Below are positions 8,641 through 23,381 of a DNA stretch of 29,622 nt, piece after piece. The notes beneath the pieces were generated by a model that was given only the letters and a program-made list of their open reading frames with translations, had not been told where the DNA came from and ran no database searches. The number at the start of each line of letters is the position of its first letter. Within the stretch, counting starts at the first letter, position 1. The stretch is from a virus, in the IMG/VR virus record IMGVR_UViG_3300030419_001398, positions 1 through 29,622 of that record; one strand, given 5' to 3'. Both the position numbers and the translations under genes were made by a program.

Positions 8641-8726
8641 TGGTGCGTGAGGTAGGATTTGCACCTACGAAGCCATATGGCGACTGATTTACAGTCAGTT
8701 GGGTTTGACTACTTCCCTACTCACGC
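8641..8726 (-). tRNA. tRNA-Tyr (anticodon GUA)
   Basis: Full cloverleaf on the minus strand. The acceptor GCGTGAG pairs with CTCACGC, with discriminator A and an encoded CCA (8641-8643). The D arm is GGG/CCC. The anticodon stem ACTGA/TCAGT holds loop CTGTAAA, giving anticodon GUA. A long variable arm (GCC-ATAT-GGC) is typical of bacterial tRNA-Tyr. The T arm is GTAGG/CCTAC. All stems are perfect, so it should be functional. It sits inside the small-gene operon and is probably released by host tRNA processing. Confidence 0.95.
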
Positions 8727-22431: not shown

Positions 22432-22554
22432 ATGAACATAACACCTGAACTAATTACTACAATACATAATATATCTTGGTTTGATGGTATACTTTATATT
22501 ATACTTGGATTAGGTGTTTATTCAGCATATAGATGGATAAAAAATAAAATATAA
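22432..22554 (+). CDS. Small membrane peptide, 40 aa
   Basis: Translated by eye: a polar N-terminus (NITPELITTIHNISW), one hydrophobic helix at residues 18-35 (DGILYIILGLGVYSAYRW) and a basic end (KNKI). It would insert with one membrane span. It lies one base after the previous stop. Ends exactly where the riboswitch-like element begins. Function unknown; holin-like size is noted but not evidence. Confidence 0.6.
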   Translation: MNITPELITTIHNISWFDGILYIILGLGVYSAYRWIKNKI

Positions 22555-22616
22555 TCGTTTGACTCATTGAGTTGGAAGTAGGTATCGAAGAAACGCACTA
22601 ACTTTAATTAGGAGGT
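22555..22616 (+). promoter_or_regulatory. Glutamine-riboswitch-like RNA (glnA/glutamine class)
   Basis: P1 is CGTTT (22556-22560) with AAACG (22591-22595). P2 is a small hairpin GACTC-ATT-GAGTT (22561-22573). The conserved GGAAGTAGG follows (22574-22582), then CGAAG (22586-22590) leading into AAACGC. This order (CGUU-, stem, GGAAGUAGG, CGAAG-AACGC) is the signature I know for the glutamine aptamer. The usual P3 is nearly absent (GG-UAU-C). Downstream CTAA/TTAG (22598-22611) can form beside the GGAGG (22611-22615), so translational control of the 33-aa gene is likely. Confidence 0.8.
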
Positions 22617-22621
22617 GTGTT

Positions 22622-22723
22622 ATGACAAGACAACAATTATATTGTTATCTTAAAGAACAAAAAGAAAAAATAAAAAAAGAAAAATTAAAAAGGTATTTTA
22701 ATGGCATCTTCAGGAACTTATAA
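22622..22723 (+). CDS. 33-aa Lys-rich peptide under the riboswitch
   Basis: Translated by eye: MTRQQLYCYLKEQKEKIKKE, then KLKRYFNGIFRNL. Predicted as one basic amphipathic helix. The strong GGAGG is 6 nt before the ATG. It is the first frame after the glutamine-riboswitch-like element, as is the case for the 'downstream peptide' of the related class. Its end overlaps the adaptor 2 gene by 23 nt, so it may couple riboswitch output to adaptor 2 translation. Confidence 0.65.
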   Translation: MTRQQLYCYLKEQKEKIKKEKLKRYFNGIFRNL

Positions 22724-23381
22724 TTTTAATTTAGATATAGATGAAGTAATTCAAGAAGCTACAGAAATGATAGGTGGTGAACAAACTCTTGGACATACAC
22801 CTCAATCAGCAAGAAGGTCTATAAATTTATTATTAAATGATTGGCAAAATAGAGGTGTTTTATTATGGTCAACATTTACTACAGCAGTAACAGTATCAAC
22901 AAGTGTCACATCTTATGATTTAGCAGATTCAGTAAATGATGCTTTAGTTATTACAATTAAAGCAAGTGCTGCAGCTACAGAAACACAATTAACAAGAATA
23001 TCATTTGAAGAATATAATGTTTTACCTAATAAGTCACAAACAGGTAGACCAACACAATATGCTATAAAAAGAAATGTAGATAAACCTACAGTATTTTTAT
23101 ATCCTATACCTAATAATAATACAGAAATATTAACAATAGAAGCAATAAGACAATTACAAGATGTAAATAAATCTGCAGAACAAAATGCAGATATACCAAA
23201 AAGATTTTTACCTTGCTTAACTTATGGGCTTGCACATCAATTAGCACAAAAAAGACCAGGTATTACTGATGCAAGAGTAGCTATGTTAAAAGCAAGTTAT
23301 GAAGAAACATTTAAAAGAGCTATGGAAGAAGATAAAGAAAGAGCAAGTATTTATTTTAAACCTAAATTAGGATATGTTTAA
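22701..23381 (+). CDS. Head-to-tail adaptor protein 2 (P22 gp4-like), 226 aa
   Basis: N-terminal helices (DIDEVIQEATEMIGGEQTLG, ARRSINLLLNDWQNRGVLLW) match the tail-completion/adaptor family that binds the portal base. A beta region (VTSYDLADSVNDALVITI, RPTQYAIKRNVDKPTVFLYP) and C-terminal helices follow: IPKRFLPCLTYGLAHQLAQK, then RVAMLKASYEETFKRAMEED. The start overlaps the 33-aa peptide gene by 23 nt, with AAGG upstream. It probably builds the second ring below adaptor 1. Confidence 0.82.
   Translation: MASSGTYNFNLDIDEVIQEATEMIGGEQTLGHTPQSARRSINLLLNDWQNRGVLLWSTFTTAVTVSTSVTSYDLADSVNDALVITIKASAAATETQLTRISFEEYNVLPNKSQTGRPTQYAIKRNVDKPTVFLYPIPNNNTEILTIEAIRQLQDVNKSAEQNADIPKRFLPCLTYGLAHQLAQKRPGITDARVAMLKASYEETFKRAMEEDKERASIYFKPKLGYV

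Follow-up and report, generated by a model that had tools for sequence, protein, structure and literature searches.

Riboswitches are regarded as uncommon in phages. The window (the whole stretch of 29,622 nucleotides of viral DNA analysed here) raises the question of what a glutamine riboswitch would control when it sits among the virion genes of a marine phage. The first-pass annotation had proposed that such an element ties part of late expression to host glutamine. Glutamine riboswitches in phages are already known; one has been published in methylophage Melnitz EXVC044M and another reported in Pelagibacter phage Mosig (PMC9004378), and they have been mentioned for T4-like cyanophages (PMC9602691, PMC9964418), while none was found in pelagimyophages (PMC7029224). 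The Melnitz riboswitch was assigned by its authors to the control of tmRNA (PMC9004378). Our literature search found no paper describing a conserved micropeptide or a riboswitch-micropeptide cassette, and it is the cassette described below that is new.

RESULTS

The window element belongs to the type-1 glutamine riboswitch class

The genes of the window include those for TerL, portal, GroES and the major capsid protein. The capsid protein shares 55% identity with those of Phage DSL-LC04 and Pelagibacter phage HTVC023P, and TerL is 39 to 40% identical to those of HTVC027P and HTVC023P. Judged by these similarities, the window is a marine phage of the HTVC023P/HTVC027P-related group, with a likely SAR11-like host. 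The left arm also carries a tRNA-Tyr (8641-8726) and a glutaredoxin gene (1466-1804), both on the minus strand. The element itself is located in the structural operon, where the first-pass annotation had placed it.

When the entire window was searched with cmscan against every Rfam family, there was a single riboswitch match, to RF01739 (type-1 glutamine riboswitch, glnA aptamer), at positions 22554 to 22599 on the plus strand. The match scored 39.7 bits, the curated gathering cut-off being 35 bits, and spanned the full model (1-53), with E-values of 1.9e-5 against all Rfam families and 4.4e-9 against RF01739 alone. RF01704 (Downstream-peptide, type 2) had no match in the window up to E=5 in the all-Rfam search; hence, of the two covariance models that the first-pass annotation had named, the glnA model matched above its cut-off and the downstream-peptide model did not.

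All of the pieces of the aptamer named in the first-pass annotation were present, in order, on the plus strand: P1 (CGUUU, 22556-22560, with AAACG, 22591-22595), P2 (ACUC, 22562-22565, with GAGU, 22569-22572), the conserved core GGAAGUA (22574-22580), P3 (GGUAUC, 22581-22586) and GAAG (22587-22590). The core, the P1-P2-P3 order, the model match and the proximity to a Shine-Dalgarno (SD) sequence are those of type-1 glutamine riboswitches. The window copy departs from the typical RF01739 in its P1 closing pair, which is U-A and not C-G, in the bases flanking P2, which are G.U and not A.C, and in P3, which consists of one pair (G22581-C22586) and a GUAU tetraloop. The short P3 had been called unusual, and it was found in 6 of 167 distinct phage elements, the shortest class seen. 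Because P3 is a single base pair with a GUAU loop in place of the common GNRA, the affinity of the aptamer might be low. Identical or near-identical elements occur in other contigs (L113/L174, L189, L157 and L145), which argues against an assembly error. A search of 50 records from relatives of the window gave RF01739 matches above the cut-off in 22.

The helices covary among phage copies

A pattern of core bases found at least 119 viral stretches and a second pattern at least 120, together at least about 240 phage stretches; core conservation in these copies is partly by construction, because the core served to find them. The covariation sample consisted of 167 distinct phage elements, chosen by a 5' CGTT and a 3' CG anchor, while P2, P3 and the closing pair of P1 were left free. 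This closing pair was CG in 132 elements, UA in 25 and GC in 10, with zero mismatches. Pairs 1 to 3 of P2 and of P3 were formed in 97 to 100% of elements, versus 45 to 89% when 3' arms were swapped among elements, and none of 1,000 arm swaps reached the observed P2/P3 pairing. The bases flanking P2 (positions 8 and 23) were A.C in 135 elements, G.U in 22, A-U in 6 and G-C in 4 (Fisher p 3e-18), an isosteric switch of which the window has the G.U form. P1, P2 and P3 covary strongly in the 167 distinct phage elements, and covariation among relatives, which the first-pass annotation had named as a check, thus supported all three helices. Taken together, the Rfam model and the covariation identify the window element as a glutamine-class aptamer, and we infer that this copy binds glutamine.

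The expression platform is predicted to act on translation

The first-pass annotation had also noted an SD sequence just downstream of the aptamer; this is AGGAGG (22610-22615, plus strand), which precedes the micropeptide ORF described below and is potentially controllable by the aptamer. In the predicted fold, AACGCACT (22592-22599) pairs with GGTGTGTT (22614-22621), so that the hairpin (22592-22621, plus strand) encloses the SD. AACGCACT joins 3'-strand bases of P1 to those that come after them, and the hairpin and P1 have AACG in common. Folding of the window without ligand gave the 8-bp SD hairpin, competing with P1; enforcing the aptamer removed four of the eight pairs and left a residual CACT/GGTG stem. 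Among 84 distinct phage platforms the SD was paired or enclosed in 80 (mean z -2.9 versus shuffles), and the platform arms change together across phages (CACC/GGTG, CATC/GATG, CACT/AGTG). In most phage platforms the SD hairpin meets P1 at its last base only, and it is therefore in the clade of the window that the two structures most clearly exclude each other.

No terminator-like site was found, and transcription termination was rejected as the mechanism on this ground. The combination of an SD-covering hairpin and no terminator predicts a translational switch. Since the glutamine riboswitches in the literature, type 1 and type 2 alike, turn expression on when glutamine binds (PMC6316151), the predicted direction, by analogy, is ON.

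The aptamer is preceded by a 40-aa ORF, MNITPELITTIHNISWFDGILYIILGLGVYSAYRWIKNKI (22432-22554, plus strand), with its stop codon 1 nt before P1. At phage riboswitch loci more widely, the stop codon of the preceding ORF often lies just 1 to 2 nt ahead of P1 (49 loci), and upstream translation might therefore interfere with aptamer folding.

The likely target is a micropeptide in a 130-bp cassette

Directly behind the riboswitch lies a 33-aa basic micropeptide ORF, MTRQQLYCYLKEQKEKIKKEKLKRYFNGIFRNL (22622-22723, plus strand, ATG at 22622), followed by the gene for a 226-aa head-tail (portal/tail) adaptor (22701-23381, plus strand), which has its own AAAAAGG SD-like sequence. Comparison with relatives delimited a 130-bp cassette (22553-22682, plus strand) comprising the riboswitch, the ribosome-binding site and the 5' part of the micropeptide ORF, which is absent from four related stretches (L121 to L124). 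One of these, L121, has a 98% identical adaptor and also retains the upstream 40-aa ORF; exactly window positions 22553-22682, which hold most of the micropeptide ORF, are missing from it, and the SD-like site of the adaptor is kept.

The ORF behind the riboswitch was consistently small and basic. Across 187 distinct first ORFs, length ranged from 26 to 81 aa and 185 were net positive; no ORF in an initial set of 121 was longer than 78 aa, a length not exceeded by 56% of SD-preceded ORFs at the same loci. The genes that follow the small ORF vary among phages and, as named by eye, include ThyX-like, tail fibre and redoxin-like genes and others. Fifty-nine adaptor relatives had 1.5 kb or more of upstream sequence; 31 of them carried the riboswitch, mostly about 460 nt upstream of the adaptor with another ORF between. 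RF01739 was absent throughout the nearest isolates, HTVC023P, HTVC027P, DSL-LC04, CRP-901 and psg01, and from nine pelagiphages bearing homologues of another riboswitch-linked ORF, and a search of phage records by nucleotide BLAST with the element as query gave chance matches only. The most economical reading is that the main target of the riboswitch is the 33-aa micropeptide and not the surrounding virion genes. The proposal that glutamine governs virion or late expression is not supported as stated, given the 130-bp indel that spares the adaptor SD, the constancy of the small basic ORF before a varying next gene, and the ORF that in most relatives separates cassette and adaptor.

Could the riboswitch nevertheless gate the adaptor and late genes, with the 33-aa ORF serving as a leader that couples ribosomes to the adaptor start? 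The two reading frames overlap by 23 nt, an arrangement that recurs in three other contigs (L125, L126 and L191), and the element does lie within the structural operon. Because the last codons of the micropeptide ORF overlap the adaptor, some coupling is possible. As an account of the element, however, this seems unlikely to us: the cassette-free phage keeps the same adaptor SD, most relatives have an intervening ORF, the five isolates named above have no RF01739, and elsewhere the next gene is a different one.

We consider it rather improbable that the aptamer has decayed, or has taken on another role, and gives no response to glutamine, being for example a structured spacer or an RNA-processing signal at a gene boundary. 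The one-pair P3 with its non-GNRA loop, a score only moderately above the cut-off and a P1 so close to upstream stop codons as to be prone to ribosome disturbance would fit such a copy, but the core and every helix are preserved, copies with a short P3 turn up again in other contigs, and both the expression platform and the small ORF have been kept together with the aptamer. That the resemblance to a glutamine aptamer is due to chance has a negligible probability; although the element is short (46 nt), its E-value against all Rfam families, its recurrence among relatives and the covariation in phage elements refute that explanation.

The micropeptide has a homologue behind the Melnitz riboswitch

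Melnitz, an OM43 myophage, is unrelated to the window phage. Its riboswitch (MZ577097, 46398-46446) scored 52.8 bits to RF01739 and is followed by GGGGAGAGTGTTATG and then by a 32-aa ORF, MTLYQQWCYLKAQKEYRRRQKILMYFRIRLKG (MZ577097, 46469-46567; 1470-1568 of our copy, L419). This ORF is unannotated on its strand, where an opposite-strand ORF is annotated instead, and carries its own SD hairpin directly behind the riboswitch. Thus the aptamer family, the type of SD hairpin and a homologous ORF right behind are all as in the window. The window peptide (MTRQQLYCYLKEQKEKIKKEKLKRYF...) aligned with the Melnitz peptide from the start codon, ungapped over 26 aa, with a Smith-Waterman Z of about 8.6. 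Both ORFs stand directly behind RF01739 and have N-termini of CYLKxQKE type (MTRQQLYCYLKEQKEK in the window, MTLYQQWCYLKAQKEY in Melnitz). Different codons are used at 7 of the 13 residues in common, which suggests selection on the peptide. From this alignment, the 33-aa window peptide is judged homologous to the Melnitz ORF. The position of that ORF right behind the Melnitz riboswitch makes the micropeptide the likelier target there, with tmRNA less probable.

Six further members of the peptide family were found (L473, L445, L515, L111, L052 and L442; Z 6-9), and families tied to other phage lineages were statistically weaker (Z 3-6). Within window-type ORFs pN/pS was about 0.41 (17 codons, 3 pairs), a weak signal because there are just three distinct sequences. 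Many relatives have the same N-terminus joined to a longer tail, also basic (MDNQTLYILQKEKREI...KASKMHKRQA...), and HTVC027P has a riboswitch-free small gene resembling the basic tail alone. The 33-aa micropeptide belongs to no Pfam, PHROG or NCBIfam family and did not match the IF7 or DUF4278 models; a tblastn search of phage records (E<=10) gave no match either.

Related riboswitches precede nitrogen genes in marine bacteria

Bacterial matches to the riboswitch pattern stood before the ammonium transporter gene amt (L313 and L387; PF00909), the glutamine synthetase gene glnA (L335; TIGR00653) and circularly permuted ATP-grasp genes (L356 and L343). Among the records, by title, are Pelagibacteraceae, uncultured Alphaproteobacteria, SAR116, Rhizobiales TMED25 and SAR86. 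Type-1 glutamine riboswitches have been called restricted to cyanobacteria (PMC6316151), whereas here they also occur in marine alphaproteobacterial, SAR116 and SAR86 records. With the riboswitch before amt and glnA of marine hosts, the phage copy would read a signal that hosts use for nitrogen assimilation.

In cyanobacteria the same pattern preceded DUF4278-like and IF7A-like ORFs, the latter behind a type-1 riboswitch in one record (L319). DUF4278-type ORFs with a YRGV motif likewise follow glutamine riboswitches in five phage stretches (L002, L067, L072, L082 and L118), and the two tested gave weak matches to Pfam PF14105. Fifteen phage stretches have two glutamine aptamers in tandem before one short ORF. 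Another family of about 54 to 65 aa (..GTSGYxxKxGxNKGK..) occurs with a riboswitch in three metagenomic phages (L048, L057 and L117) and without one in the cultured pelagiphages HTVC019P, HTVC011P, HTVC106P, Kolga and Eistla (L407, L412, L408, L410 and L415). A small riboswitch-linked ORF (MTKYxxA..AVKKSL), ending in DNPFYP or DNPYYP where complete, is common to the SAR86 records L391 and L303 and the phages L007, L044 and L078. A 64-aa phage ORF family (RHSF/DRFT) aligned weakly with IF7 (Smith-Waterman Z 4.4-4.9) but had no NCBIfam match, and its homology to IF7 was set aside as a lead only.

DISCUSSION

Our analysis points to a mobile cassette, probably ON-switched by glutamine, in which a type-1 riboswitch has as its main target a basic micropeptide of about 30 aa; the case is built on comparative sequence data. 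It would have entered a relative of the Pelagibacter phages HTVC023P and HTVC027P, at a site flanked by the head genes on one side and the gene for the adaptor on the other. With ligand absent, AACGCACT would pair with GGTGTGTT and hide the SD; glutamine binding would stabilise P1, remove AACG from the SD hairpin and expose the SD, so that the peptide would be made at high host glutamine. We infer that the 33-aa peptide is translated, and its function may be to adjust host nitrogen assimilation.

Known systems offer partial parallels. Cyanobacterial type-1 glutamine riboswitches are ON switches that precede small regulatory proteins (DUF4278, IF17) (PMC6316151, PMC2864571); the window copy instead sits among the virion genes of a phage and precedes a phage micropeptide that belongs to no known family. 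Type-2 riboswitches (RF01704), also ON switches, are followed by a short ORF of 17 to 100 aa (PMC2864571, PMC6316151). The window resembles them in joining a riboswitch to a short ORF and in its predicted ON direction, but the aptamer differs and the type-2 peptides are of the DUF4278 kind. IF17 (gifB), a small basic protein under a glutamine riboswitch, is similar in arrangement to the window peptide, which nevertheless matches neither IF7 nor IF17 in NCBIfam, Pfam or PHROG; the weak IF7 alignment (Z 4.9) is confined to the RHSF family.

A more speculative extension, which we hold only tentatively and think doubtful as a whole, is that phages of several marine lineages share a glutamine-gated micropeptide that resets nitrogen assimilation in the infected host, for instance through inhibition of glutamine synthetase or its regulators, as a phage counterpart of cyanobacterial IF7/IF17, with the cassette moving between phages of different marine hosts. 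An action of the peptide on nitrogen metabolism is suggested solely by the company of the riboswitch, which precedes host nitrogen genes.

The best-described phage glutamine riboswitch has been assigned to tmRNA, and our comparison points to a conserved micropeptide that annotation missed. The window and Melnitz copies would then have the same likely target. SAR11-type and other marine alphaproteobacteria have the riboswitch in front of amt and glnA, so that phages and their hosts may be reading one nitrogen signal, and the short cassette could be used to ask why ocean phages sense glutamine.
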